NCBI GenBank assembly: GCA_017545185.1 | Contig: JAFWQJ010000060.1 | Location: 1-48,498 of the forward strand | Direction of reading: 5' to 3' | DNA: 48,498 nt | From: Oscillospiraceae bacterium | GTDB lineage: Bacteria; Bacillota; Clostridia; Oscillospirales; Ruminococcaceae | Program-made: the position numbers and the translations under genes | Shown here: positions 4,882-43,129 of the stretch, piece by piece | Numbering within the stretch: the stretch's first letter is position 1 | Layout: each line of letters begins with the position of its first letter | The notes under the pieces: model-generated | The model's input: the letters and a program-made list of their open reading frames with translations, nothing else | What the model was told of the DNA's origin: nothing | The model's database searches: none

Positions 4882-6126
4882 TTACATATCCGCAAGCAGC
4901 GCATCCCATGTGACTTTGCGGCCTGCAACGGTGTTGCTGACGTAATATTTCAGGATGTACTGCGCATCCTCCACGGAGACCGTGCTGTCCGCATTGACGT
5001 CCGCTGTCCTGCGCTGCGCGTCGGTCAGGCCGTCCGCCTTGCCGGAGATCCGCTCCGTATAAGCCTTCAGCGTTTCCTGCGCATCCTCCACGGAAACCTC
5101 GCCGTCCAGATTGCAGTCGCCGCGCTGACGGGGATCCATGTCAAAGAACTGTATGCTGTAGGTGATCGGCGCGGGCTCTCCCTTTTTGGTGATGCCGCTG
5201 ATGCTGACCGTCACGGAATCGTTCTCCGGGAACAGCTCGCCGGGATAGAAGATCAGGCAGTTTCCTGTGCCGTAAAGCGCCGTGTTGACCGTCAGATAGT
5301 AGTTGAAATCCGTGCAGCTGCCGTCCAGATGAAACGTCCTGTCCAGTTTCTCCGAGCGGATATCCACGCTGACCTTTTTCACATCCGCCGTATCATAGGC
5401 GGAACCGAGCGAAACGGACAGCGCATACCGGTCGCCCTTGCTGTAAAGATAGTACGGCATTTCCGGCGGCGGCCAGGCGATGTAGTCGCCGGTGAATGTC
5501 TCCTGCCGGTTGAAATCGTTGATGTAGACCGCATAGAAATTCTCTGTCTGCCCGAAGCCCGTATTCAGCAGATCCGGATTCAGGATCCAGCGCCGGTGCC
5601 CGAGCGCCGGGAGATTCTTCTCACTGGAATCACCCATGAGCCCTTCGACGATTGACTGACAGAACGCGGGGCGGCCTCTGGACAGTATGCCGCCGCCCGC
5701 ACCGAGGCTCGCAAGGCGGAACATCGGTTCAGACATGCCGGAAGGCTTTTTCGGATCGTGGTCAAGCTTGCCGTTCAGGCGATTGACCAGCGACGCAGCC
5801 TGTGCAAGCTCCGAATAATCCGTTTTCACCGTCAGGTCAGCCGGCAGACCCGCTGCATAGCGGATGCAGTTGAGGCAGTTCAGCAGCTCCTGCTGTGTTT
5901 CCGCGGAGAGTGACCCGGGTGCAAAGGGCGCGGTCAGGGAAGGTTCCGCGTCAAAAACGGAGACATTCTGCATGTCCCACGGGTGCGACGCAAAAAACGC
6001 GCTGATCTCTTTTGCGGTGTGCACTTCCCGATCATAGCTCTGTCCCTCTGCTGACGCAGGCTGCGGCAGGGAAACAAACAGCATCGCCGCGGCAGTCAGC
6101 ACTGCCGGAAATTGTCTGGCCTTCAT
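4882..6126 (-). CDS. Secreted CAP-domain protein with C-terminal dockerin
   Basis: The 414-residue product starts with a Sec signal peptide (residues 1-26, ending QPASA). Residues about 75-225 resemble bacterial CAP/SCP-like domains: an N-terminal helix (LLNCLNCIRYAAGLP), the LDHDP segment and the GHRRWILNP motif. A beta-rich segment without a recognised name follows. The C-terminus (about 338-405) is a type I dockerin with two calcium-binding F-hand repeats, DCNLDGEVSVEDAQETL and DVNADSTVSVEDAQYIL. Dockerins attach secreted proteins to cohesins of a cellulosome-type scaffold, so this protein is probably carried on such a complex; a cohesin protein is encoded at 20463-21296. The function of the CAP domain here is unknown. 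The ribosome-binding site GGAGGAATC supports the start, and a good promoter lies upstream. Confidence 0.8.
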   Translation of the reverse strand: MKARQFPAVLTAAAMLFVSLPQPASAEGQSYDREVHTAKEISAFFASHPWDMQNVSVFDAEPSLTAPFAPGSLSAETQQELLNCLNCIRYAAGLPADLTVKTDYSELAQAASLVNRLNGKLDHDPKKPSGMSEPMFRLASLGAGGGILSRGRPAFCQSIVEGLMGDSSEKNLPALGHRRWILNPDLLNTGFGQTENFYAVYINDFNRQETFTGDYIAWPPPEMPYYLYSKGDRYALSVSLGSAYDTADVKKVSVDIRSEKLDRTFHLDGSCTDFNYYLTVNTALYGTGNCLIFYPGELFPENDSVTVSISGITKKGEPAPITYSIQFFDMDPRQRGDCNLDGEVSVEDAQETLKAYTERISGKADGLTDAQRRTADVNADSTVSVEDAQYILKYYVSNTVAGRKVTWDALLADM

Positions 6127-20462: not shown

Positions 20463-21296
20463 TTATGCCTTCTCGAGATCCTCAGCAGTAATCAGACGAG
20501 CGATGAACTTCAGAACCTTGGAAGCATCATCAGCGTTGACAGCACTGTCGTGGGTGACATCAGCGTTTGCCTTACCGGCGTCGGTCAGAACAGCGTTCTT
20601 ATCGGAAACAGCAAAACGGCAGATCAGAACCGCGTCAGAGACGTCAACCTTGCCATCGCAGGTAGCATCGCCCCACTTGGTAGCGGACGGTGTGGTCACG
20701 ACCGGAGGCGGAGTGGTCTCCGGAGTCGGATTGCCAATCTTGACTTCACCGTTGGTGAAAGCAGCAGAGTAATCCTTCGTTGTGTCGCCGACAGCGGAGA
20801 ACACAACATCAGCCTTTGCAGACGAGCCCGGATATGCAGCACGGTCAACAGCGCCGCCCTTCAGATCTGCGGTACCTGCAGTGGTCTTTGCATTACCGGA
20901 AATGGTCAGGAACTTGCCGCTGTTCTTCACCCAGTACTGGGAATCGGTCAGACCGGTTGCCCAGACAACAACGATCTGCTTGCCAGTGTCATACCAGCTG
21001 AACAGTGTGTCGCCCAGATCGCCTTCCTGAGAATCAGCACCGGTCTTGCCGGCAGAACCCAGCTCGACCTTCTTGATCTCGATGAGGCTGCTGTCGTAGC
21101 TGATTGCGAAGTCGATAGAGCTCAGACCGGAGCTCGGGACAGAACCCAGCTCAACATCAACGCTGAATGCTTCGCCCGGCGTAACTTCCGCCTTACCGAT
21201 GGTCACCTGAACATCATCAGCCGCGAAAGCAGACAGACCCATGCTCATAGCAGCCATGGTCATAGCCATCAGGCCAGAAACAATCTTCTTTTTCAT
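20463..21296 (-). CDS. Secreted cohesin-dockerin adaptor protein (ScaC-like)
   Basis: The 277-residue product has a signal peptide (about 1-25, ending SAFAA). Residues 26-175 look like a cohesin: VQVTIGKAEVTPGEAFSVDV, then SIDFAISYDSSLIEIKKVEL, and a beta-sandwich with the typical Gly/Ser-rich loops. A Pro/Thr linker (ETTPPPVVTTPSATK) follows. A dockerin then covers about 210-275, with F-hand repeats GDATCDGKVDVSDAVLICRF and NADVTHDSAVNADDASKVL. One cohesin plus one dockerin is the layout of ScaC-type adaptor scaffoldins in Ruminococcus, which let one dockerin class be exchanged for another. The ATG at 21296 is chosen because GGAGG is 9 bases upstream; another ATG lies two codons earlier. Confidence 0.8.
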   Translation of the reverse strand: MKKKIVSGLMAMTMAAMSMGLSAFAADDVQVTIGKAEVTPGEAFSVDVELGSVPSSGLSSIDFAISYDSSLIEIKKVELGSAGKTGADSQEGDLGDTLFSWYDTGKQIVVVWATGLTDSQYWVKNSGKFLTISGNAKTTAGTADLKGGAVDRAAYPGSSAKADVVFSAVGDTTKDYSAAFTNGEVKIGNPTPETTPPPVVTTPSATKWGDATCDGKVDVSDAVLICRFAVSDKNAVLTDAGKANADVTHDSAVNADDASKVLKFIARLITAEDLEKA

Positions 21297-21403
21297 GTTC
21301 ATACTCCTCCAAAATTTATATATGGTGTTCTGCAGCCGGCTGGTGCCGACTGCCGTGAGGCGGATGTCCCCTTCTTCATCCACGTTCACATGATACCATT
21401 TAT

Positions 21404-31333: not shown

Positions 31334-32386
31334 ATGGCAGATGAAGAAAAGCGTCTCGATCAGATTCTCGAAAAGGCAAAGGCGAGCGGAAAGATCACCG
31401 TGGCCGAGGTGCAGGAGGCTTCCGAAAGCCTTTCTCTGGAGCCGGAGCACATCATGGAAAAGTGCTCTGCCATGCAGATCGAGCTGGTCGATGACGACAT
31501 TTCACTGGAGGACGCTTCCGATCCCGCCGTTTCGCTTGCAAACGACGAGATCTCGAACGACGACTCCGTCAAAATCTATCTCAAAGAGATCGGCAGGGTC
31601 GCGCTGCTGACCACGGACGAGGAAACCGAGCTTGCACGGAGGCTCGCGGACAATCCGCAGGATGAACCCGCACGGCAGCGGCTTGCGGAAGCCAATCTGC
31701 GTCTGGTCGTCAGCATCGCGAAGAAATATGTGGGACGCGGAATGCAGTTTCTGGACCTCATTCAGGAAGGGAATATGGGGCTGCTGAAGGCGGTCGATAA
31801 ATTTGATTATACCAAGGGCTTCAAATTTTCGACCTATGCGACATGGTGGATCCGGCAGGCGATCACCAGAGCGCTCGCAGATCAGGCCAGAACGATCCGC
31901 ATCCCGGTGCATATGGTGGAGAGCATCACGAAGGTGAAGAAGGTCTCCAGCCAGATCCTGCACGAGACCGGCCAGGAGGCCAGTCCCGAGGAGATCGCCA
32001 AAAAGCTCGAAATGCCGCTGGAAAAGGTGCTTGAGATCATGCGCATCGCGCAGGATCCCGTTTCGCTGGAAACGCCGGTCGGCGAGGAGGAGGACAGCCA
32101 CCTCGGCGATTTTATCCCGGACGATCAGGCGCCCTCTCCGGACGAAGCCGCTTCCAATGCCATGCTGAAAGAGCAGCTCAATGAGGTGCTCTCCACGCTG
32201 ACCGAGCGCGAAGCAAAGGTCATGCGGATGCGCTACGGGCTGGAAAACGGCAGGCAGCAGACGCTTGAGGATGTCGGAAAGGCACTGGGCGTCACGCGTG
32301 AGCGTATCCGGCAGATCGAAGCGAAGGCACTCCGCAAGTTAAAGCATTACAGCCGGAGCAAGAAGCTTCAGGGATATATCGACTGA
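31334..32386 (+). CDS. rpoD: Primary-type RNA polymerase sigma factor, copy 1 (RpoD/SigA)
   Basis: A 350-residue group 1 sigma factor that directs polymerase to housekeeping promoters. It contains a region 1.1-like N-terminus (residues 1-60), the acidic linker, and region 1.2-2 ([62 protein letters not shown]). Region 3 follows, then region 4 ([20 protein letters not shown]) recognising the -35. At the C-terminus it reads [14 protein letters not shown], where most SigA proteins have a RHPSRSK-like sequence. It is the first of two tandem homologues after dnaG. Confidence 0.92.
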
Positions 32387-32444
32387 TGCGGAGTCACGGC
32401 AGCATCAGAAAGAAGAAGGGTAAATAAAGGGAGGAAACAATCCT

Positions 32445-33521
32445 ATGGCAGCAGATAATCAGAAGGTTGAGCAGCTTCTGGAGCGCATCAAGCTCAGCGG
32501 AAAGCTCCCGCAGAACGAACTGGATACCGCATTTTCCGAAATGGAATTCAATGATGAGGAGATCAGCCAGTTCTACGAGCAGTGCAACATGCTGAATCTG
32601 GAGCTCGCAGATGAGGAATTGCTCGATGACGATATTGAGACCCGTCTTGCGGAGGAGGATGCCATGTCCCTTGAGGGCGGCGCTTCCCCGGACGACCCGG
32701 TCAAGATCTATCTGAAGGAGATCGGCAGAGTGCCGCTCCTGACACCCGAGGAGGAGACAGAGCTCGCAAGACGGCTTGCGGATAACCCGAACGATCAGGC
32801 GGCAAAGAACCGTCTGTCCGAGGCGAATCTCAGACTGGTCGTCAGCATCGCGAAGAAGTACGTCGGACGCGGGATGCAGTTCCTTGACCTGATCCAGGAA
32901 GGCAACATGGGTCTGCTGAAGGCGGTCGATAAGTTTGACTATACGAAGGGCTTTAAGTTCTCGACCTACGCAACCTGGTGGATCCGGCAGTCCATTACGC
33001 GCGCGATCGCAGATCAGGCCAGAACGATCCGCATCCCGGTGCACATGGTCGAAACGATCACCCGCGTGAAGAAGGCTTCCAGCCAGCTGCTGCATCTGAA
33101 CGGCAGAGACCCCTCCGAGGAGGAGATCGCGGATTATCTCGATATGCCGATCGACAAGGTGCGCGAGGTCATGCGCATCGCACAGGAGCCCGTCTCCCTC
33201 GAAACGCCGATCGGTGAGGAGGAGGACAGCCATCTCGGCGACTTCATCCCAGATAACCATGCGCAGTCCCCGAACGATGCGGCCAATAACACCATGCTCA
33301 AGGAACAGCTCAATGAGGTGCTTTCCACGCTGACGCCCCGTGAAGCGGACGTCCTGCGGATGCGCTACGGGCTGGACAACGAGCCCCCGAAAACGCTGGA
33401 GGATGTCGGCAAGGCATTCAATGTCACGCGAGAGCGCATCCGGCAGATCGAAGCCAAGGCGCTCCGCAAGCTGCGGCACCCCAGCAGAAGCAAAAAGGTT
33501 CGGGATTACCTCGAACATTAA
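32445..33521 (+). CDS. rpoD: Primary-type RNA polymerase sigma factor, copy 2 (RpoD/SigA)
   Basis: A 358-residue group 1 sigma factor starting 58 bases after the first. Regions 2 to 4 are nearly identical to copy 1 in the DNA-contacting helices ([40 protein letters not shown]), so both should read the same promoters. The N-terminal ~85 residues differ much more. The C-terminus ([15 protein letters not shown]) is the canonical SigA ending, so this copy is the better candidate for the essential factor. The ribosome-binding site is GGGAGGAAAC. A lipoprotein gene follows 14 bases later. Confidence 0.93.
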
Positions 33522-34254: not shown

Positions 34255-34681
34255 AAAGGGCTCCCGCCCTTTTGAAACCTGCGCGCTTCACTCGTCGCGA
34301 CCGGCGTCGCTCCTATGTTCAGCGGGCGGCTGCGAATCTCTTTGAGATTCGCTTGGAATAAAGTATCCGCTGCGCGGATGCTATTTAGAATGGGGGAAGC
34401 AGCCCCGTTCCGGGGGTACTTCCCCCAAGCACCTATCTTCCCGTGTGAGAACGCAGAGGAGTTTCGCGCTCTGCGGAGTGCGACGAGGGCTCTGCCCTCG
34501 ACCTGCAAGCCTTTGAAAAGGCTTGAGCGAAACTTTTGATATGGTTGCAGACCGTTCGCCTACCGCACGACCAGCAGTAAAAAAGGACGCCGATTTCGGC
34601 ATCAGCGCCCTTTTCTCATACACATAATGGGGTCTGGGGACTAGTCCCCAGCGGGGGCTTGGGGGCAGCGCCCTCATTCTA
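34255..34681 (-). repeat. Hairpin-chain dispersed repeat, copy 2 (inverted)
   Basis: The reverse complement of this segment matches copy 1 (13518-14076) block for block: the GGGGCTTGGGGGAAGTACCCCC hairpin region, CATTCTAAATAGCATCCGCG, AAGCCTTTTCAAAGGCTT and the GCGACGCCGGTCGCGAC end. It lacks the ~115-base palindrome module of copy 1 and has a different terminator stem at the same place. It begins at the stop codon of dpaB, in the same orientation relative to its gene as copy 1. Confidence 0.85.
34577..34612 (-). terminator. Terminator inside repeat copy 2, downstream of dpaB
   Basis: On the minus strand GGGCGC...GCGTCC forms a stem (one G-U pair) followed by TTTTTTAC. It occupies the same place as the different terminator stem of copy 1. 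Confidence 0.65.
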
Positions 34682-35281
34682 AATCATCGCGGAGCGATAC
34701 AACAATGGCTGGAGCTGCGTGCCCTGCAGGGCGGCGGCGACGGTCTCCGGTACAAGCGAAAAATCCGCGACCAGCGAGGTCGGCTTCCGCTCCGGGTCAT
34801 CCTGTCCGAACGGCACAAAATAATAATGCCGCCGGTTCAGCAGATCACCGAGATTCCGCGCCGCCGCCGCAAGCCCGTCATTCGTCGCAATGCAGAGGAT
34901 CACCGGCTTGCCGCCCCGCAGATGCGACTTCACCGCCATCGGCACCGTGCCGTCCGTGATGCCCGCGGACAGCTTCGCCAGCAGATTTCCCGTGCACGGG
35001 CAGACTACCATGGCATCCGTCAGGTTTTTGGGGCCGATCGGCTCCGCCTCTGTGATCGAGCGGATGAGCCGTCCGCCGCTTAATTCCCGCAGCGGCGCGA
35101 GGAAATCCTCCGGCACACCGAACCGTGTCGGGATCGACGCAAAATGCTCCGACACGACCGGCAGCACCGCCGCGCCCGCACAGGCACACGCCTCCGCCGC
35201 CGCGACCGCCCGCGCCGCATTGCAGAATGAGCCGCACAGCGCAAACCCGAGCCGCACCCCGGAGAGATCAGGCATCTGCAT
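34679..35281 (-). CDS. dpaB: Dipicolinate synthase subunit B (flavoprotein)
   Basis: Subunit B (SpoVFB) works with subunit A to make dipicolinic acid, the calcium-binding compound of the spore core. The 200-residue product starts with the flavoprotein-type fold VRLGFALCGSFCNAARAV. It continues with MVVCPCTGNLLAKLSAGITDG and KPVILCIATNDGLAAAARNLGDLL, all family hallmarks. It is complete. The ATG at 35281 follows GGAGGG and overlaps by 14 bases the end of a dpaA remnant, the normal dpaA-dpaB junction. Because dpaA is broken here, this gene has no intact partner in the window. Confidence 0.9.
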   Translation of the reverse strand: MQMPDLSGVRLGFALCGSFCNAARAVAAAEACACAGAAVLPVVSEHFASIPTRFGVPEDFLAPLRELSGGRLIRSITEAEPIGPKNLTDAMVVCPCTGNLLAKLSAGITDGTVPMAVKSHLRGGKPVILCIATNDGLAAAARNLGDLLNRRHYYFVPFGQDDPERKPTSLVADFSLVPETVAAALQGTQLQPLLYRSAMI

Positions 35282-35420
35282 CACCGCCCTCCGCGTCCAG
35301 CAGCTCCTGCACGGTCTGCGCGACGATCTCACCGGCCGAAACCGGAGCCGTCTTGCCCGGCAGCGAGAGTGCCCAGATCACCTGCAGGCCGATCCCGGAA
35401 GCGGCTTCAAAGTCAACGCC
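35268..35420 (-). pseudogene. dpaA: 3' piece of split dpaA (dipicolinate synthase subunit A)
   Basis: The last 50 codons of dpaA remain. VDFEAASGIGLQVIWALSLP and GKTAPVSAGEIVAQTVQELL match the C-terminal catalytic-domain end of DpaA, and the stop codon overlaps dpaB as in intact operons. The homology stops abruptly at 35420. The preceding part of the protein is found on the same strand at 41918-42146, 6.5 kb away, and its last codons (LASKPG) would join this piece in frame. The piece has no start of its own. Confidence 0.8.
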
Positions 35421-35470
35421 CGATGACGTTAAAACCACAACAGCAGCTCCATCCCGGAAAGCGGTTTGCG

Positions 35471-35737
35471 TTATTCTCCGATTGCCGGAAACAGGTTTTC
35501 CGCATCTTCGTAATTCTCTTCCTCAGCAGGCTCGTCTGTTTCCAGAATTGTCAGTTCCGACCACAGATCAGGAAGCCCTCTTTCTTCCGTGAAAGTGGTT
35601 AGATTCGTCGTTTTCTTGCATCCGTCTTTTTGATAAACAATGCAATTACATTCATTGCATATCCGGATGATCTCCTGTGTCTGGTTCACGATTGCCAGTT
35701 GCAGATAATCAGCATAGCAGCCCGGACATAATATCAT
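35471..35737 (-). CDS. Small cysteine-containing (zinc-ribbon-like) protein
   Basis: An 88-residue acidic protein. Pairs of cysteines (ILCPGCYADY at the start and IRICNECNC at about 25-34) suggest a small zinc-binding fold. The rest is acidic (EPAEEENYEDAENLF). AGGAGG lies about 9 bases before the ATG. The gene is more AT-rich than its surroundings, which fits acquisition. It sits just inside the left end of the segment that splits dpaA. No family recognised. Confidence 0.6.
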   Translation of the reverse strand: MILCPGCYADYLQLAIVNQTQEIIRICNECNCIVYQKDGCKKTTNLTTFTEERGLPDLWSELTILETDEPAEEENYEDAENLFPAIGE

Positions 35738-35794
35738 TTCACGATTTCCTCCTTCCGGATAGATGATACACCGGCCGGTTTCACGGCGAGTGCT

Positions 35795-36517
35795 TCATAC
35801 AGCGTCAGAGCCGGTTCGTTTCCAGCATTTCAGCCGCCCCGACCGACCCGCTTCGGCCAGGATCCCCATGCTCCCGAGCAGATTCAGATACAGCCGCACA
35901 GGGAGCACCGGCGTATGCACCGCCTTTGCCAGTGCGGAAGCGGTCAGGGGCTCCGGAAGCGATTCCGGCAAGAAAAGTGCAAAGTCTGCCGGGGTATCCA
36001 GCATCACGATGCGCCGCAGTTCAAGCGGGATGCGGTCAAGCTTTTTCCGGCGCTCCTTCCCGCACTGTACGAAATACTCGGCGAGTTCGAGCTCACACAG
36101 GCAAATGCGGAACCGCGGGTCTGTCACATACTGCCGCAGCGTATAGATCTCCCGCATCGCGGAATACACATTTTCATGCTTCGGGGAACGCCGCTTCGAG
36201 AGCAGCTCCCCTGCTTCATCGACGCGGTACAGCGTTTTCTCCGCAATGACCGGGTGCACGACCGTCACCGGGCAGACCGGCAGGAATGCGTCCAGCTTCG
36301 GCTTTAAGCGGTGCAGCCCGCGCGTCTGGATCTCGATGACGCCGTCCTCCGTGACCGCGTCCGCGACGTACCCGCCGACCGGCCGCTCATGCGTTTCGGG
36401 ATCCGGCGCAAAATAATATTTCAGCGCGAGATGCAGCGTCTTTTCGCCGAGCGTGCCGATCCCCCGGCCGCCGGCATCCCTCTGCGCCGCTGCAAGCGCG
36501 GCTGCAAAATCGCCCAT
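35795..36517 (-). CDS. Uncharacterised protein with a possible PD-(D/E)XK nuclease-like fold
   Basis: A 240-residue soluble protein. The N-terminal half reads GTLGEKTLHLALKYYF and then VADAVTEDGVIEIQTRG. An early Glu plus a D-x(n)-E-I-Q pair resembles the active site of PD-(D/E)XK-type nucleases, though Gln replaces the usual Lys. The C-terminal half is helical, with a possible winged-helix segment (LTASALAKAVHTPVLPVRLY). I do not recognise an established family. GAGGTG precedes the ATG. It lies inside the segment that splits dpaA, next to the sugar transporter terminator. Confidence 0.6.
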   Translation of the reverse strand: MGDFAAALAAAQRDAGGRGIGTLGEKTLHLALKYYFAPDPETHERPVGGYVADAVTEDGVIEIQTRGLHRLKPKLDAFLPVCPVTVVHPVIAEKTLYRVDEAGELLSKRRSPKHENVYSAMREIYTLRQYVTDPRFRICLCELELAEYFVQCGKERRKKLDRIPLELRRIVMLDTPADFALFLPESLPEPLTASALAKAVHTPVLPVRLYLNLLGSMGILAEAGRSGRLKCWKRTGSDAV

Positions 36518-36532
36518 ATGCTCACCTCACAA

Positions 36533-36565
36533 AAAAGCACAGTGCCGCAGGGACACTGTGCTTTT
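36533..36565 (-). terminator. Terminator of the sugar ABC transporter operon
   Basis: A 12-bp perfect stem (AAAAGCACAGTG / CACTGTGCTTTT) with a 9-base loop. On the minus strand it ends in TTTTTTG. Confidence 0.9.
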
Positions 36566-36591
36566 GATGCTTTCGGGAATCCGAAGCCGGA

Positions 36592-37485
36592 TCACTCCTT
36601 GACACCGCCGGCAGCGACGCCGCCGATGATGAACTTGGACAGGATGATGTAGATCACGACAACAGGGACGATTGACAGGAAGATCGCGGCGTAGTTTGCG
36701 CCGGAATCCGGGCTGCGGTCGATCGAGATGACCTTCTGCACCATCATCGGCATCGTCAGCTGTTCCTTTTTGCCGGAAACGAGGACGATCGACTGGGTGT
36801 AGTAATCATTCCACTTCTGGATGAATGCGAAGATCGCCTGCACGGCAAACGCCGGCTTCATCATCGGAATGGAAATGGTCAGGAAGGTACGGAACTCATT
36901 GGAGCCGTCGATTCGGGCAGCCTCAATGATATCGAGCGGGAACGAGGACAGCATATACTGACGCATGAAGAACACGATTGCAGGTGCTGCGATCGAAGGA
37001 ACGATCAGCGGAATATAGCTGTCGAGCAGATTCATCTGAATCAGCAGGTTCATGAAACCAACGGCAGTGACCTGCGTCGGAACCATCATGACTGCGAGGA
37101 TGAACACAAATGCCGGGCCCTTAAGCTTGAAATCGTAAACAACGAGGCCGTAAGCGGTCAGGCCGGAGAAGAACACGGTCAGCGCGCTGCATCCGCCTGC
37201 AATGATCAGCGAGTTCAGCATACCGCGGAGCGGGTTGAAGAACTTGCTGTACAGGGTATTCGTGCGCAGGGTCTTGATGTTCTTGAACAGATGTGTACCC
37301 GGAATCAGAGAAACCTTCGAGATAATATCGGCATGTGCCTTCGTTGCATTGACAACGAGGATCCAGAGCGGGACCAGGCAGATCAGCGTCAGCAGGATCA
37401 GCGCGAAGTAGATTGCCGCAGACTTGATCAGCACCTGCGTCTGATAGCCGCCCTTGCCGTCATCATACGTAATACGCTTGCTCAT
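36592..37485 (-). CDS. Carbohydrate ABC transporter permease (MalG-like)
   Basis: A 297-residue inner permease of a CUT1-type sugar importer, with six transmembrane helices. The EAA loop that contacts the ATPase is EAARIDGSNEFRTFLTISIP (about 195-214), followed by MMKPAFAVQAIFAFIQKWNDY, characteristic of MalG-type subunits. It overlaps the other permease by 4 bases. No ATPase gene is in the window; such systems often share a common MsmK-like ATPase. The sugar is unknown. Confidence 0.92.
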   Translation of the reverse strand: MSKRITYDDGKGGYQTQVLIKSAAIYFALILLTLICLVPLWILVVNATKAHADIISKVSLIPGTHLFKNIKTLRTNTLYSKFFNPLRGMLNSLIIAGGCSALTVFFSGLTAYGLVVYDFKLKGPAFVFILAVMMVPTQVTAVGFMNLLIQMNLLDSYIPLIVPSIAAPAIVFFMRQYMLSSFPLDIIEAARIDGSNEFRTFLTISIPMMKPAFAVQAIFAFIQKWNDYYTQSIVLVSGKKEQLTMPMMVQKVISIDRSPDSGANYAAIFLSIVPVVVIYIILSKFIIGGVAAGGVKE

Positions 37486-38519
37486 ATCGAGAACCCGCCT
37501 CCTTTCGCTCTGCGCTTGGCTTCCTTGATCTGCTGTCTGCGCTTCTTTGCCTTCTCCATTGCGTCCTTATCACGCTGCACCCAGAAGACGAGTGCGCCGA
37601 GGATCGACGTAATGACGAACAGAATCACAGAAGCAGCAGCGGAATAGCCGAAGGAAGGCTTCGCAAAATTCTTGTGGAACATCTGATAAACAAACACAGC
37701 AACCGTTGCGATATTCTCGTTGATGACGTTGCCCGTATGGAGCATGAACGGGATATCGAACATCTGCAGACCGCCGATCATAGAGGTCAGCAGCGTGTAG
37801 ACCATGATCGTTTTCAGAAGCGGGAAGGTGATCTTCCAGAAGGTCTGACGGGAGTTTGCGCCGTCGATCTCAGCCGCCTCAAAGAGCGACTCGTTGATGC
37901 CCTGGATACCGGACATCAGCATGATCATGGTATTGCCGAACCACATCCAGACCTGAATAAACATGACAAGGACGCGGGCACTCCACACACCGGTAATGAT
38001 CTTCAGCGGTTCGACGCCGAGCTCCGGGTTGTTGCATCCGCGCAGCATGTTGATCACACTGTAGGAAGAATCGCCGAACAGGGAGAGGTACAGACCGGCA
38101 ACAGAGGCAGCGGTGATGATATTCGGCATATACATCACGACCTTGAAAAAGCCCTTGCCGGGCATCTTGACGCGCAGGTCGGTGAACCACACTGCGAGCA
38201 GCAGCGAGAGTGCGATCTGCGGAATGAAGTTGCCGACCCAGATGATGACGGTATTCTTCATGTAGCGCCAGAAGGTATCGTGGATACCCATGGCCTTGAA
38301 GTCATTTTCAGCCGGCGTCGCGAGAATCGTCTTAAAGTTGTCCAGACCGACAAAAGCGAGGTTCGTTCTGCCGCCGTTGGCATGGAATGCCAGGATGAAG
38401 GTCTGAAGCAGCGGATAAAGGCTGAAAATAAAGTACACGACAAAGAACGGCAGGATGAAGATGTAGCCGTACTTTGCGTAGCTGACGGATTTGATCCGCT
38501 TTTGTGCAGCTGTAGCCAT
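37482..38519 (-). CDS. Carbohydrate ABC transporter permease (MalF-like)
   Basis: A 345-residue CUT1-type permease, longer than its partner because of an extended N-terminus and periplasmic-side loops. The EAA loop is EAAEIDGANSRQTFWKITFP (about 219-238), followed by LLKTIMVYTLLTSMIGGLQMFD. It ends in a highly basic tail (KAKKRRQQIKEAKRRAKGGG). It is second in the operon, 159 bases after the substrate-binding protein gene, a spacing that leaves room for differential expression of the abundant binding protein. Confidence 0.92.
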   Translation of the reverse strand: MATAAQKRIKSVSYAKYGYIFILPFFVVYFIFSLYPLLQTFILAFHANGGRTNLAFVGLDNFKTILATPAENDFKAMGIHDTFWRYMKNTVIIWVGNFIPQIALSLLLAVWFTDLRVKMPGKGFFKVVMYMPNIITAASVAGLYLSLFGDSSYSVINMLRGCNNPELGVEPLKIITGVWSARVLVMFIQVWMWFGNTMIMLMSGIQGINESLFEAAEIDGANSRQTFWKITFPLLKTIMVYTLLTSMIGGLQMFDIPFMLHTGNVINENIATVAVFVYQMFHKNFAKPSFGYSAAASVILFVITSILGALVFWVQRDKDAMEKAKKRRQQIKEAKRRAKGGGFSI

Positions 38520-38678
38520 TCAGCACACCCTTTCAAGAAGAAATTAGTGAAAATTACGAATCAAGATAAAATATTCGCCTATTGGGCACGGAGGCCCAAT
38601 AGGCAAATATTCGGTTATGCTATTTTTCAGGCATTCTGTTTGTTTGCGAAATGTCTGAATGTCTGTCGGGAGTAAGAA

Positions 38679-40154
38679 TTACTCGACGGTCAGACCCTCG
38701 ATCGTAGCAGCGTTCTTCTTGAACTCAGTGATCATGTCATCGTAGGAAGCAACTTCGCCCTTAACATACTTGGTAACAGCGTTGTTGAATGCGTCCTTGA
38801 TCTGTGCATCGTATGCAGTGATCTTGCCGTCCATGTCGATCTTGGAAGCAGACTCGTACAGAACAGAGAACTGATCCTGGCCGCCGAGCAGAGCGTTCTT
38901 GTTGGAGCCGTCATCAACGATCTTCTTCATAACGGTCGGGTTGTTGACGAACTCGCCCTTGAACAGAGCGTACTCTTCCATGGTGTCCTCATCAACCGTG
39001 AAGTACTTGACGAAGTCACGAGCGATCTCGCCGTTGTCGCAGTTCGGGGACAGAGCCAGCCAAGAACCGCCCCATGCCCACTCAGACGGGCCAGCGGTGA
39101 TTCTGTACTTGCCGTAGATATCAGCATTCTTCGGGGTCTCGCCGTCATCTTCCATGCCGCCCTCAGCGTTGCTCAGCATAGAGCCCTTACCGAGGCACCA
39201 TGTGCAGAAGAAGTAACCCATGGTGGAGCCGTCCTGGCCGATCGGATACCAGCCCTTGTCATCCCACTGGGACTCCTTGGTCACATAGCCGTTATCCCAG
39301 TAATCCTTTGCGAGGTCTGCATACTCCTTGCAGTAGTCGTCGATGACCAGCTTGTCGTCCTTTGCCCATGCGTTCTTGCGGTTGTACTGCCAGACCTGCC
39401 ACATACCGCCGAGGGTATCAGCCATTGCGCACTTGCCGCCGGACTTTTCCTTAACGGTCTTTGCGGTCTCGGTGAACTTATCCCAGCTGTCAACGAACGG
39501 CTGCATCTCTTCCGGAGTCTTAACGCCGAGGTACTCCTCTGCGAGGTCTGCTCTGTAGACGTATGCACCCGGAGTTGCCTGCCAGGAAGCTGCCTTCAGG
39601 ACGCCGTTGTTATCGGTACCGATGGAAACGGTGTACGGATAGCAGCCGGAGAAGTCAGCATCGGTGAAGCCGAGCTTGCTCAGCGGAGCGGTGTAGTCAT
39701 CGTTGTTGATGTACTCAAGGATCCAGTCTGCCTCGAGAACGAACAGGTCAGCATCCTCGCCGCCTGCGAAGTAGGTAGCATACTGCTCGCGAGCTTCCTG
39801 GCCCTTGGAGCCGACGTTGACATACTCGACCTTGCCGGCGTACTCAGGCTTATTCTTGGTGAAGTTCTCGATCATCTTCTCGACGTCGTCGCCGGTCCAG
39901 CAGAGAACGGAGAGCTTGTCGCCGGTCTCAGGAACGTCGATCGCAACAGTGTCAGTGCTGCTGTTGTCTTCGCCGTTGTCATCAGTCGGGGTGGAATCCT
40001 CAACGGTGGAATCCTCAACGGTGGAATCCTCAACGGTGGAATCCTCGGTGGTGCTGTCGGTGTTAGCCGGGGTGTCGGTACCGCAAGCATAGAATGCGGT
40101 AGATGCGATTGCCAGAGTTGCAATCAGAGCAAGAGACTTCTTCAGTGCGTTCAT
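38679..40154 (-). CDS. Carbohydrate ABC transporter substrate-binding lipoprotein
   Basis: A 491-residue surface lipoprotein. The signal peptide ends at STAFYAC with the modified Cys at 24. A spacer follows with the tandem repeat STVED (about 38-60), encoded by four 15-base repeats at 39991-40050. The body is a two-lobed solute-binding fold of the sugar (MalE-like, extracellular) type; DKLSVLCWTGDDVEKMIENF and SEWAWGGSWLALSPNCDNGE are visible segments. It begins the operon with a strong GGAGGAAATT ribosome-binding site and captures the sugar for the two permeases downstream. The substrate is unknown. Confidence 0.9.
   Translation of the reverse strand: MNALKKSLALIATLAIASTAFYACGTDTPANTDSTTEDSTVEDSTVEDSTVEDSTPTDDNGEDNSSTDTVAIDVPETGDKLSVLCWTGDDVEKMIENFTKNKPEYAGKVEYVNVGSKGQEAREQYATYFAGGEDADLFVLEADWILEYINNDDYTAPLSKLGFTDADFSGCYPYTVSIGTDNNGVLKAASWQATPGAYVYRADLAEEYLGVKTPEEMQPFVDSWDKFTETAKTVKEKSGGKCAMADTLGGMWQVWQYNRKNAWAKDDKLVIDDYCKEYADLAKDYWDNGYVTKESQWDDKGWYPIGQDGSTMGYFFCTWCLGKGSMLSNAEGGMEDDGETPKNADIYGKYRITAGPSEWAWGGSWLALSPNCDNGEIARDFVKYFTVDEDTMEEYALFKGEFVNNPTVMKKIVDDGSNKNALLGGQDQFSVLYESASKIDMDGKITAYDAQIKDAFNNAVTKYVKGEVASYDDMITEFKKNAATIEGLTVE
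39991..40050 (-). repeat. 15-bp tandem repeat in the lipoprotein spacer
   Basis: Four units of GTGGAATCCTCAACG, the last with two changes, encode STVED repeats. A length-variable spacer between membrane anchor and binding domain is likely. Confidence 0.9.
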
Positions 40155-40386
40155 TTGGAATTTCCTCCTTCAAATTGCTGCGAAATTTTGCTGCGTTCGC
40201 AGCTGTGAAAATGTGGACCCGATCGTTCGGGTGGAATTTTCGCTGCGTTGAGCGCAGCCGGAAGCGCGGCCTGCATCCTTCCTACAGGTTTGCTTCCCTT
40301 GCAAACAAGGTCTGCCGGAGCGGGGTTCTTCCGGTGTCAGGCTTCCGTCGGAGCCCGTATCCCGCGTCCCTCGTTTTCATACTTGT

Positions 40387-40415
40387 AATATACACGAAAA
40401 AGGCCGAAAAGTCAA
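40387..40415 (-). promoter_or_regulatory. Promoter of the sugar ABC transporter operon
   Basis: On the minus strand TTGACT (40410-40415) and TATATT (40387-40392) with a 17-bp spacer, giving a leader of about 230 bases. Confidence 0.75.
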
Positions 40416-40694
40416 TGCATTACATCACTTTGTCATCTGATTTGGTTGTTTTGTGCATTCTACTCAACCCAAATCTTGCTGTCTTGTGCACAATTTGCGA
40501 TTTGATACCTGTATTTCACGATTTTTTGCGATTTTGTTACATTTCGGTTACAGTTTTCGCCCGATAATTTACAAAACGGCGTTCAAAAACCGATGCCATT
40601 TCACGAATCCGTGCAAAAATGGCCCCGATTTCCGTCATTTTCACCATGCTTTCACATTTTTTGCGGCTTTATCACAGAAATTGCGAAATACCCC

Positions 40695-40723
40695 TTGCAT
40701 TTTATTACGTTTTCCGTTATAGT
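40695..40723 (+). promoter_or_regulatory. Promoter of the 40757 gene
   Basis: TTGCAT (40695-40700) and TATAGT (40718-40723) with a 17-bp spacer, about 35 bases before the start codon. Confidence 0.75.
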
Positions 40724-40756
40724 AATAATAACCAATACAATTCCGGAGGTATTTCT

Positions 40757-41077
40757 ATGGCACATTATCCTTTTACCGACCGTCCCGGGCTGCTCGTACT
40801 GACCTGCACGCATGTTCTGGAGGGTGCGGATATCACAACGGTCTGTCACCATTTCAATGACAACACATGGGAATTTGTCTGTGACGGTCAGCACACCGAG
40901 GAAGAAGCGATCGTCATGAGCATCGGTGAGCTCTGCGAGAGCGACCCCTCGCTGCATCTCGTCTGCGACCTGCCGGTCGGCGCCGCCGCGACCAGAAAGA
41001 GCCGTGCGCACGCATGGCAGTTCGGCAGAATCGGCGGCGAGGACTACTACCCCGCCGCCGACACCAGAATGCCGTAA
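40757..41077 (+). CDS. Small DUF2185/Imm33-like protein
   Basis: A 106-residue soluble acidic protein, MAHYPFTDRPGLLVLTCTHV at the start. The pattern THVLEGADITTVCHHFNDNT-WEFVCDGQH-EEEAIVMSIGEL-DPSLHLVCDLP-AHAWQ resembles the small DUF2185/Imm33-type proteins found widely in Firmicutes, some as immunity proteins. The match is by pattern only. GGAGGT and a good promoter precede the ATG. It is the only plus-strand gene of the segment splitting dpaA and has no toxin beside it. Confidence 0.6.
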   Translation: MAHYPFTDRPGLLVLTCTHVLEGADITTVCHHFNDNTWEFVCDGQHTEEEAIVMSIGELCESDPSLHLVCDLPVGAAATRKSRAHAWQFGRIGGEDYYPAADTRMP

Positions 41078-41107
41078 AGCTGACAGCGGATCGTACAGGT
41101 ATCGCCT

Positions 41108-41857
41108 TCACGATCCGCTATTCACTATATAAAGGTGTTCCCTGAGCGTGTGCTCGAAATATTCCGGGCTGAGCCCCTCAGCGAACAGCAGCTCATGAAT
41201 ATCCTGATAACCGCCGAGCTGCTCCCGCAGCGAGAGGATCGCATCGGCCAGCTCCCCTGTCATGCCGGGCAGCTGCAGCAGATCGTCCCGTTCCGCCGCA
41301 TTCAGATCCAGCATTATCTGTCCTTGTTCCTGCTCCTGCGCTTCTGCGGGAGCAGGTTCTGTTTTCTGCGGCTCTGCATCCTGCGGCACTTCGGGCGCCG
41401 GATCAGGCTGCTCATCCGGAATATAAAACCGCTCCATAATGCGCGCCGCCAGTGTTTCCCCGATGCCGGGGATCTCCAGCAGCTGCGACCGCCTTGTGAA
41501 TCCGCCGGCGGAATCCCGGTAAGCGATGATCTCCGCCGCTAAAAATGCACCGACGCCGGACACTTCCTGCAATGCTGCCTCGTCCGCAGTATTGAGGTTG
41601 TAGTCCGGCGTTGTGCGTTGTAATACTTCATCTTTGCTTTGATCGCTTCGGGATGCGGTGACAGAAGGCGCAGCAACAGGCTGTTTTTCGGTTGCAGCGG
41701 CTGACGGCACTGTGCCGATCTCGGCAACAGGCGGGGTTTTCGTCTGCACACTGACAACGACCGGCTGCGAAGGCTTCTGCATCAGCACTGTGACCAGCAC
41801 CGTGACAAGCAGCGCCGCAAGTCCGGCAGCAATGAACCGTTCCTGTTTTTCGGGCAT
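41108..41857 (-). CDS. ComEA-like helix-hairpin-helix protein
   Basis: A 249-residue protein with a short cytosolic start, one transmembrane helix (about 9-27) and an extended linker. It has two helix-hairpin-helix DNA-binding units: YNLNTADEAALQEVSGVGAF (about 100-119) with PGIGETLAARIMERF, and LDLNAAERDDLLQLPGMTGE (about 195-214). ComEA proteins bind DNA outside the membrane during natural transformation; usually they have one HhH pair after the helix. The start at 41857 follows AAGGA; the frame is open upstream into the dpaA fragment, which is not part of this gene. Confidence 0.75.
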   Translation of the reverse strand: MPEKQERFIAAGLAALLVTVLVTVLMQKPSQPVVVSVQTKTPPVAEIGTVPSAAATEKQPVAAPSVTASRSDQSKDEVLQRTTPDYNLNTADEAALQEVSGVGAFLAAEIIAYRDSAGGFTRRSQLLEIPGIGETLAARIMERFYIPDEQPDPAPEVPQDAEPQKTEPAPAEAQEQEQGQIMLDLNAAERDDLLQLPGMTGELADAILSLREQLGGYQDIHELLFAEGLSPEYFEHTLREHLYIVNSGS

Positions 41858-41917
41858 TGCGCCACATCCTTCCGTCCCGACCGGCGAAGCCGATCCCGTA
41901 TGATCCTGAACGTCATC

Positions 41918-42146
41918 CCCGCCCGGCTTTGAAGCCAGATCGAGAATGAGCGCGTCCTTCCGGACAATGCGGAGCATATCGCGGTCCAGCAGCATAGCCG
42001 GGACCGTATTGATAACCAGCGGATAACTGCCGAGCACCTCCCGCAGCCTGCTGAGCTGCACGGTGCGGCTGCCTTCGCCCTCGCTCCGCGTCAGGTGAAA
42101 AAGGGAAACCGCTTGCCGTCCGGAAGCCGGATCCTTCCGCTTCTAC
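41918..42146 (-). pseudogene. dpaA: Middle piece of split dpaA
   Basis: The minus strand encodes RTVQLSRLREVLGSYPLVIN followed by TVPAMLLDRDMLRIVRKDAL and ILDLASKPGG, matching the NAD-binding half of dipicolinate synthase subunit A just before its C-terminal part. The C-terminal part is at 35268-35420. Upstream of this piece the frame hits two adjacent stops (around 42147-42152), and the N-terminal ~150 residues are missing or scrambled, so the gene is dead in this configuration. The AraC gene end lies 120 bases away. Confidence 0.75.
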
Positions 42147-42265: not shown

Positions 42266-43129
42266 TCAATCGCGCCAGCGGCGGCGGAAAGCCAGACAGG
42301 TGACATTCTCCGCTTTCTTGAATTGCTTGGAGAAGTAGCTTTGGTCATTAAACCCGCACAGGGACGAGATCTCCTCCACAGACTTGTCCGTGAAGCGGAG
42401 CAGGCGCTTTGCATAGTTGATGCGCAGCGCGATGATGTGCTGGAAGATCGTCTCCCCGTAGGCGCGTTTGAATTCCCGCGTCAGGTAGTATTTGCTGATA
42501 TCGAACCGCCGTGCCAGATCATCCAGCCGGATATCACCGGTGAAGTTCGCGTCGATGTGCGCGAGCACGGTCTTGAGCTTGGCCTGCAGCGCTGTGTCGT
42601 TCTCCTCGGAAATGCTGTTGACAGTCAGCAGCATCGTCAGAAGATCGACGATCAGGCCGGAGGTCAGCACCTCGGTATCGGCATAGGTTTCGGCGTTCAG
42701 GCGCATGATCTCCTGCAGCAGTGAAACGAATTTCACTGTGGAGACCGGGTGGAACACAGGCTGAAGCTGCGCCGTGAACAACTTGTAGTATTCCTCTGAG
42801 GTACATCCGTTAAAGTGCACCCAGAGCAGCTCCCACGGATCCTGCGCATCGCTCTGATACGAATGCGCGGCGCGGCAGTCGATGAAGAAGCAGTCACCGC
42901 CCTCCAGCTGGAACTGTCTGCCTTCATAGTTCAGGCTGCCCTTGCCGTTCAGGACGACTGCAAACAGGAACGACTGCAGGTTCTGACGGCTCGTGTGATG
43001 ATTATCGCCCGCTTTGAGATGTCCGCACTCCTGGAGATAGAAGAACGCGCGCCTTGCAACGGCACTTGGTGTCTTCATGATCCGGCTGTCGAGCGGATTC
43101 GGGGCTTGTGCAAAATTCTGCTGCGGCAT
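42266..43129 (-). CDS. AraC-family transcriptional regulator
   Basis: A 287-residue regulator with an N-terminal cupin-like sugar-sensing domain (FLFAVVLNGKGSLNYEGRQF; FFIDCRAAHSYQSD). The C-terminal double helix-turn-helix (about 187-287) includes DLARRFDISKYYLTREFKRA and VEEISSLCGFNDQSYFSKQF. Such proteins activate sugar uptake operons, and the sugar ABC transporter at 36592-40154 on the same strand is the obvious target, although dpaA and comEA pieces lie between. It has its own promoter, and GAGGAGG precedes the ATG. Confidence 0.93.
   Translation of the reverse strand: MPQQNFAQAPNPLDSRIMKTPSAVARRAFFYLQECGHLKAGDNHHTSRQNLQSFLFAVVLNGKGSLNYEGRQFQLEGGDCFFIDCRAAHSYQSDAQDPWELLWVHFNGCTSEEYYKLFTAQLQPVFHPVSTVKFVSLLQEIMRLNAETYADTEVLTSGLIVDLLTMLLTVNSISEENDTALQAKLKTVLAHIDANFTGDIRLDDLARRFDISKYYLTREFKRAYGETIFQHIIALRINYAKRLLRFTDKSVEEISSLCGFNDQSYFSKQFKKAENVTCLAFRRRWRD

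Follow-up and report, generated by a model that had tools for sequence, protein, structure and literature searches.

The 48,498-nt stretch analysed here (the window; contig JAFWQJ010000060.1 of the Oscillospiraceae bacterium assembly GCA_017545185.1) carries two pieces of dpaA, the gene for dipicolinate synthase subunit A, an enzyme subunit for the acid that protects spores against heat, and a third piece lies on another contig of the same genome. Below, G### labels denote the 30 genomes of the genus, with G000 the window's own genome (94 contigs, the window being contig 60), and L### labels denote fetched loci. The gene for the partner subunit, dpaB, is intact at 34679..35272 on the minus strand (PRK08305, E 1e-68, above cutoff; TIGR02852, E 1.4e-61, at 207 bits short of the cutoff of 229). 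Overlapping it is dpaA piece C (35268..35420, minus strand), which holds the last 50 codons and the stop and begins at the central GG of its putative attachment (att) site, whereas piece M (41921..42087, minus strand) is an open stretch of 167 nt whose 5' end has no start codon. The family model TIGR02853 (spore_dpaA, NCBIfam) matched M over model positions 185-249 (41906-42100, minus strand; E 4.4e-12) and C over positions 241-286 (35295-35426, minus strand; E 2.8e-8). A search of the 94 contigs placed positions 4-191 on contig 35 (54476-55033, minus strand), where piece N, residues ~1-190, forms an open frame (G000:C35:54484-55057). The scores of the pieces (34-98 bits) fell below the curated TIGR02853 cutoff, which is uninformative here because none of the 396 genomes in a family sample reaches it.

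The original prediction, made from the sequence alone, had assigned both stretches in the window to dpaA, and the TIGR02853 matches bear this out. It had also put exactly 6.5 kb between them, and the two central GG positions are indeed exactly 6,500 bp apart. Its in-frame joining of M to C stands, with the join point better placed at the GG pair (41920/41919 with 35420/35419). It had seen two pieces and regarded the 5' part of the gene as degraded; that part is instead the open frame of piece N, and the three-piece state was missed.

Both junctions look like the attL and attR sites of serine integrases built around a central GG. At the M-C junction, attR (35403..35437, minus strand) would consist of a P arm at 35421-35437, the central GG at 35419-35420 and a B arm at 35403-35418 within dpaA, and attL (41902..41936, minus strand) of the B arm GGCTTCAAAGCCGGGC at 41921-41936, the central GG at 41919-41920 and a P arm at 41902-41918. 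The putative attR of the N-M junction (42071..42112, minus strand) has its P arm at 42088-42112, central GG at 42086-42087 and B arm at 42071-42085, and the partner GG on the N side is at G000:C35 54482-54483. In the cross-species alignment, the usual M-C junction has GGCTTCAAAGCCGGGC-GG-GGATGATGTCGGAGACA next to M, and its counterpart next to C is TGTCTCCGACATCATCC-GG-SGTTGACTTTGAAGC. In the window the M-C arms are GATGACGTT; this string and its inverse, already remarked on near both ends of the intervening DNA, are the inner parts of the two att-like arms. The inner arms are mutually inverted about the GG, as are the outer arms, GGCTTCAAAG and CTTTGAAGCC, which lie inside the gene. The N-M junction follows the same plan with different arms, GACCTTGCGC-GG-...GGGGAAACCGG and CCGGTTTCC...-GG-AGCGAAGGC. 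Each candidate site thus combines a shared core with inverted-repeat arms about a central dinucleotide, and the attP sites of phage serine recombinases are described in passages of PMC5595907 as symmetric about the central dinucleotide.

The inner arms of attL and attR also resembled each other within species. Among 22 species, identity was 13.5/18 at the M-C junction against 11.3+-0.33 after shuffling, and 15.8/24 at the N-M junction against 13.8+-0.31 (0/10,000 shuffles in each case), with related species counted although they are not independent events. Such likeness is not what independent decay would be expected to leave. A search of the 30 genomes with the M-C attR pattern returned 30 matches, of which 19 lay at the C junction of dpaA and 11 elsewhere, each of the latter with two mismatches, compared with 2 matches for a reversed-pattern control. 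These two-mismatch places away from dpaA include G006:C79:42276, G024:C12:19389 and nine more, and further recombination sites may be among them.

At the threshold used for all counts of the split (E<=1e-6; own genome included), dpaA was matched in 27 of the 30 genus genomes and absent from G018, G022 and G028. N and M were on different contigs in 22/30 genomes and shared a contig in none of those 22. In G015, G017 and G026, N-M is one open frame and C alone is split off; G011 has M and C, with N not found, and G025 has C only. Wherever M and C shared a contig (19 genomes), they lay on the same strand (19/19), 5.5-6.8 kb apart by the ends of the model matches. None of the 30 genomes held the joined and the split state together. 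A second copy of M in G010 (L033) was considered as a possible joined form and rejected: the two contigs are identical over 1.8 kb save at the contig end, and the identical flanks mark a duplicate contig end. That the same split, frame and spacing run through the genus is more than chance.

An uninterrupted locus in relatives, which the original prediction had proposed to look for, is common outside the genus. Among 80 dpaB loci fetched with titles, nine belong to genus members and 71 to others, and in 68 of these 71 dpaA is contiguous over both junction positions. The remaining three are L126, which stops at a contig end, and L144 and L161, which are split and are described below. In the family sample, 301/396 genomes had a dpaA match, most among the matches listed spanning ~2 to 287. 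Genus members are uncultured gut bacteria and, according to the titles of their metagenome-assembled genomes (MAGs), mostly of herbivore-gut origin.

The pieces retain the properties of a working gene. Joined in silico at the GG by script, with the register taken from fuzzy anchors on the consensus, they gave an open, in-frame dpaA in 19/19 species, so that precise removal of the intervening DNA would leave this sporulation gene in frame in every one; M was 167 nt in 19/19. These 19 are the species with all three pieces (left out were G008, G012 and G014, without C; G011, without N; and G025, with C only). The nonsynonymous rate was below the synonymous rate (dN < dS) for N, M and C in 11/11 pairs computed, and dpaB was open in 19/19 loci read. 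Codons at the junctions were unusually fixed: GCT in 17/18, GTT in 19/19 and CTT in 18/18 (p 0.011 by permutation across the 18 columns at the junctions, with several of these columns free, e.g., GAA 11/19). In 22 intact outgroup genes from other genera, by comparison, GCT occurred in 3/22 and GTT in 2/12 Val codons, and the CTT-GCG-CGG string at the old junction was kept in 0/3 of the genomes with N-M joined.

Upstream of N lies a conserved box, AC-N16-CATANNATA, with a z of 13.8 against dinucleotide shuffles over 25 upstream regions, a value inflated by relatedness; the box is sigK-like. The sporulation gene spoIVA was matched in 26/30 genus genomes and was missing from G018, G022 and G028, all without dpaA, and from G001. 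Genes of the sigK/sigE type were matched in 26/30 genomes at E<=1e-40, and G028 has one of them.

Large serine recombinases are numerous in the genus, and two of them follow the distribution of the junctions. Orthologues of recombinase C (485 aa, G000:C28:152707-154161), at 55-91% identity and E<=1.7e-172, occur in 24/30 genomes, namely all 23 with a visible N-M split and G025. No orthologue was found in G015, G017 and G026, where N-M is joined, or in the three genomes without dpaA; more distant paralogues (30-37%) occur in several genomes, including G028 (30%). Recombinase B (~400 aa, G000:C32:4877-6010) was found at E<=1e-83 in 21 genomes, every one with dpaA, and was likewise absent from the three genomes without it. 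In genomes lacking B, the group B profile retrieved longer or more distant proteins, and three of the top four such matches were checked and scored 166-218 bits, under the B-B minimum of 275. B tracks the M-C split less perfectly than C tracks the N-M split, and we regard its assignment to M-C as moderate because B is missing in six dpaA-bearing MAGs, a large number for incompleteness alone to explain.

Both proteins have the domains of large serine recombinases: PF00239 (Resolvase) and PF07508 (Recombinase) scored above cutoff in each, and the zinc ribbon PF13408 was above cutoff in C and just below it in B (23.4 vs 25.3 bits). Neither reached the NCBIfam equivalog cutoffs for XisF or Ccr (39-109 bits vs 375-900). 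Their divergence correlated with that of dpaB (Mantel r 0.81 for C and 0.68 for B; 17 species each, 0/2,000 shuffles), as expected under vertical descent. At the places listed, C and B are encoded on contigs other than those of their junctions, and none of the 19 genus M-C segments encodes a recombinase (four recombinase queries, E 0.01). The original prediction had found no recombinase, which is right for the 6.5 kb and wrong for the genome as a whole.

Three other recombinase groups, A (~570 aa), D (~730 aa) and E (~525 aa), were weighed for the M-C junction and set aside without a genus-wide profile. Proteins of group A size also occur in G022 and G028, both without dpaA; group D in G015 stands, by eye, among conjugation-like genes; and group E occurs in several species. 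The group E protein of ~525 aa (G000:C66:19625, L067-L078) is ~70-75% conserved between the species compared.

Splits of dpaA outside the genus bear on the same question. L161, from another genus, is split at the identical LASKPGG/VD site by a 6.4-kb segment with a recombinase inside, whose best match, at 40% over 381 aa and 271 bits, comes from group B. A different position, ~residue 263, is interrupted in L144 and three more family genomes (L281-L284, where L281 is L144's contig; three genera), that is, in at least four genomes among the matches listed. Each of these segments holds a group C-type recombinase (32-34% to C, 4/4), the C-terminal remainder of dpaA lies 6.2-8.6 kb downstream in 3/4, and ABC (ATP-binding cassette) permeases akin to those of the window (39-41%) occur in 3/4. 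It looks like dpaA is a repeated target of interruption. In the genus, either the recombinase genes seem to have left the interrupting DNA, or the rest of the elements seems to have been lost from around them.

Piece N has no fixed place relative to M. If the two are in direct orientation, the DNA between them amounts to at least 61 kb in the window's own genome and at least 264 kb in G009. The upstream flank of N was shared over at least 500 bp in 17/153 genome pairs and the flank downstream of the att site in 5/153. In the clade of G000, G001, G006 and G009 the upstream flank is common to all four but the downstream flank is not, so synteny there breaks at the att site, as if the att site at N were a recurrent chromosomal breakpoint. 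Inspection of the N flanks (L006 and L262-L265) showed the upstream side kept in five related species and the downstream side shared by G000 and G002 only.

The AraC-family regulator gene next to M (42266..43129, minus strand; PF12833, E 4.9e-21) offers a clue to this history. It lies upstream of M here, was near M in 15/19 loci and usually stands directly before M in split species; in G017 it precedes the whole of dpaA N-M, giving the order AraC-dpaA(N-M). In a dpaB tree of 190 columns, G015 and G026 nest among split species with G010 and G011 (93/90), and G017 is unresolved at the base. G015 and G026 have N-M joined, no recombinase C, ispE before the joined gene and AraC gone from the M locus. 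Visual inspection next to the displaced AraC gene revealed no attP remnant in either genome, and searches of the regions around N in 21 further genomes (some covered over +-1.5 kb only; positive controls included) matched neither ispE nor AraC. The simplest story is that AraC-dpaA was ancestral, that N moved off once, and that the line of G015 and G026 rejoined N-M and lost recombinase C, although the dpaB tree allows other histories.

We consider it highly likely that dpaA is a developmentally assembled gene, put back together in the sporulating mother cell as a programmed step by dedicated enzymes; from the sites and genes described above we infer the reaction, its timing, the cell, the pairing of enzyme with junction and the directionality factors. 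The vegetative chromosome would hold dpaA as pieces N, M and C. When the cell sporulates, two large serine recombinases whose genes lie elsewhere in the genome would recombine attL with attR at the central GG, probably in the terminal mother cell: one would join N to M, and the other would join M to C and set the 6.5-kb segment free in circular form. Transcribed from the conserved SigK-like promoter before N, the restored dpaA would then make dipicolinate together with dpaB. A more far-reaching proposal, which we hold to be about evenly balanced, is that N sits at lineage-dependent, chromosome-scale distances with no defined element in between and is rejoined in trans by stand-alone recombinases, splitting or inverting the chromosome of a terminal mother cell at no cost that matters. 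Across the genus, the recombinase pair would have descended vertically and evolved together with its sites, making this a bacterial counterpart of gene unscrambling.

Several observations weigh against programmed assembly. Neither an excised circle nor a joined molecule nor expression was observed, and no directionality factor was identified. Recombinase B was not found in six dpaA-bearing MAGs that are 58-84% complete (G012, G015, G017, G020, G025, G026), and the nine genus loci with titles are all from MAGs. Partial Mantel tests did not tie each set of arms to its own recombinase; the N-M arms followed B (p 0.016) over C (p 0.12). The L161 recombinase is nearest to B by a narrow margin (271 vs 261 bits for another group), just under the B-B minimum. 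Recombinase C is preceded by a SigE-like box of weak signal (z 5.4, from related sequences), a promoter scan found no promoter-like box before recombinase B, and G001 has dpaA yet no spoIVA match.

Occasional recombination in the germline, unrelated to sporulation as in phase variation, would account for the break in synteny downstream of N, and G015 and G026 resemble a fixed germline rejoining of N-M. However, the gene affected acts late in sporulation and has a SigK-like box, neither spoIVA nor an orthologue of either recombinase was found in the three genomes that have no dpaA, and the two states were never found in one genome, which leaves this explanation improbable. We think it very improbable that the pieces are expressed apart and form a multi-subunit enzyme with no joining of DNA. 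N does have its own start and promoter-like box, and the frames run on past each junction for variable lengths; but M has no start at its 5' end, past the junctions the sequence forms palindromes that co-vary from attL to attR, and neither the recombinase profile nor the single N-M frame of three genomes fits a split protein.

The original prediction had preferred, as the safer reading, an inactivating insertion or rearrangement. The discontinuity of dpaA in the assembled chromosome, with N on another contig, is in keeping with an old insertion and later rearrangements that destroyed the gene and left relics. This is contradicted by the genus-wide conservation, the open joined frames with M fixed in length, the purifying selection on all three pieces, the open dpaB, the conserved promoter-like box, the co-varying att-like arms and their matching recombinases, and by the absence of dpaA solely where spoIVA is absent too; we give it very little credence. 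Trans-splicing of RNA through split introns is barely credible: the inverted repeats could pair in RNA and N and M may be arranged in trans, but five junction-holding loci gave no Rfam match at gathering score, and recombinase co-occurrence and symmetry about the GG would go unexplained. Programmed assembly also preserves much of what the original prediction had offered first, an element like skin or vfbin removed in the mother cell, which fits the evidence except that the gene is in three pieces rather than two.

The DNA between the M-C crossover positions (35421..41920; 6,500 bp) contains no phage or mobile-element cargo; its genes, largely syntenic across the genus, encode an ABC transporter, a ComEA-like protein and unknown proteins. 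Behind piece M, and in frame with it here, is the gene for the ComEA-like helix-hairpin-helix protein (41108..41857, minus strand; PF12836, E 1e-28), whose cluster is present in 16/19 genus M-C elements. It is followed by a 105-aa open reading frame on the plus strand (40760..41077) without a Pfam or NCBIfam match and by a putative ABC sugar-type solute-binding lipoprotein (38679..40154, minus strand), named by position and by eye, with no Pfam match at 1e-3. A short tandem repeat at 39990-40050, seen by eye, encodes DSTVE repeats near the N terminus of this lipoprotein. Two ABC permeases (37482..38519, PF00528, E 2.1e-15; 36592..37485, PF00528, E 1.1e-13; both minus strand) belong to a cluster found in 19/19 elements. 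The cargo ends with a 240-aa protein of unknown family (35795..36517, minus strand; no Pfam or NCBIfam match; cluster in 12/19 elements) and an 88-aa Cys-rich protein (35471..35737, minus strand; no Pfam match). Elsewhere in the window, we noted by eye a tandem pair of RpoD-like sigma factor genes behind a primase-like gene (31334-33521), and dockerin- and cohesin-like stretches in proteins at 4882-6126 and 20463-21389, which suggest a cellulosome-type organism.

In the known bacterial cases of programmed DNA rearrangement, the element brings its own recombinase, and the gene is interrupted at one place or at several in a row. The spore-resistance gene described here appears to depend, throughout a genus, on two recombinases that are not linked to the sites they would act on, and the position of its first part on the chromosome has shifted. 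If true, scrambled genes would be tolerable to a genome that has a terminal cell line, and the system gives new natural pairs of recombinase and att site as well as a testable case of recombinase-site co-evolution. We found no description of this dpaA arrangement in the open-licence literature (preprints lay outside the scope).

One of the closest known systems is vfbin, which, like the DNA described here, interrupts a gene of the same enzyme, the partner gene spoVFB of Bacillus weihenstephanensis KBAB4, and is excised in sporulation, according to passages in PMC4191935 and PMC5025042. As portrayed in parts of PMC4191935 and PMC5595907, vfbin carries phage-related genes and a sporulation-expressed serine recombinase and makes a single interruption; here, the target is dpaA, there are two junctions, and the recombinases lie outside. 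The skin elements of sigK (SpoIVCA in B. subtilis, CD1231 in C. difficile) likewise use a large serine recombinase to rebuild a mother-cell gene, as outlined in PMC5025042, and excision in the genus would be analogous. In skin, unlike here, the recombinase gene lies inside the element and the intervening DNA is defined and contiguous. The gin element in gerE (B. cereus, recombinase GirC) shares with our case its lack of prophage character and att sites with an inverted repeat, and differs in encoding its recombinases within the element, according to sections of PMC5595907. In heterocyst-forming cyanobacteria, elements with xisA, xisC or xisF reach nearly 1 Mb, with up to four per gene, and in contrast to the present case the recombinase gene lies within the element, as reported in portions of PMC4874684. 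The survey passages there, which cover gene interruptions no more than 3 kb from a xis gene, describe no dispersed piece with an unlinked recombinase. Our claim of novelty is limited because genes with multiple elements and elements of nearly 1 Mb are known from cyanobacteria (parts of PMC4874684). What would be new compared with skin-type elements, judging from the genomes compared here, is the combination of an unlinked, vertically kept recombinase pair with a wandering gene piece N.

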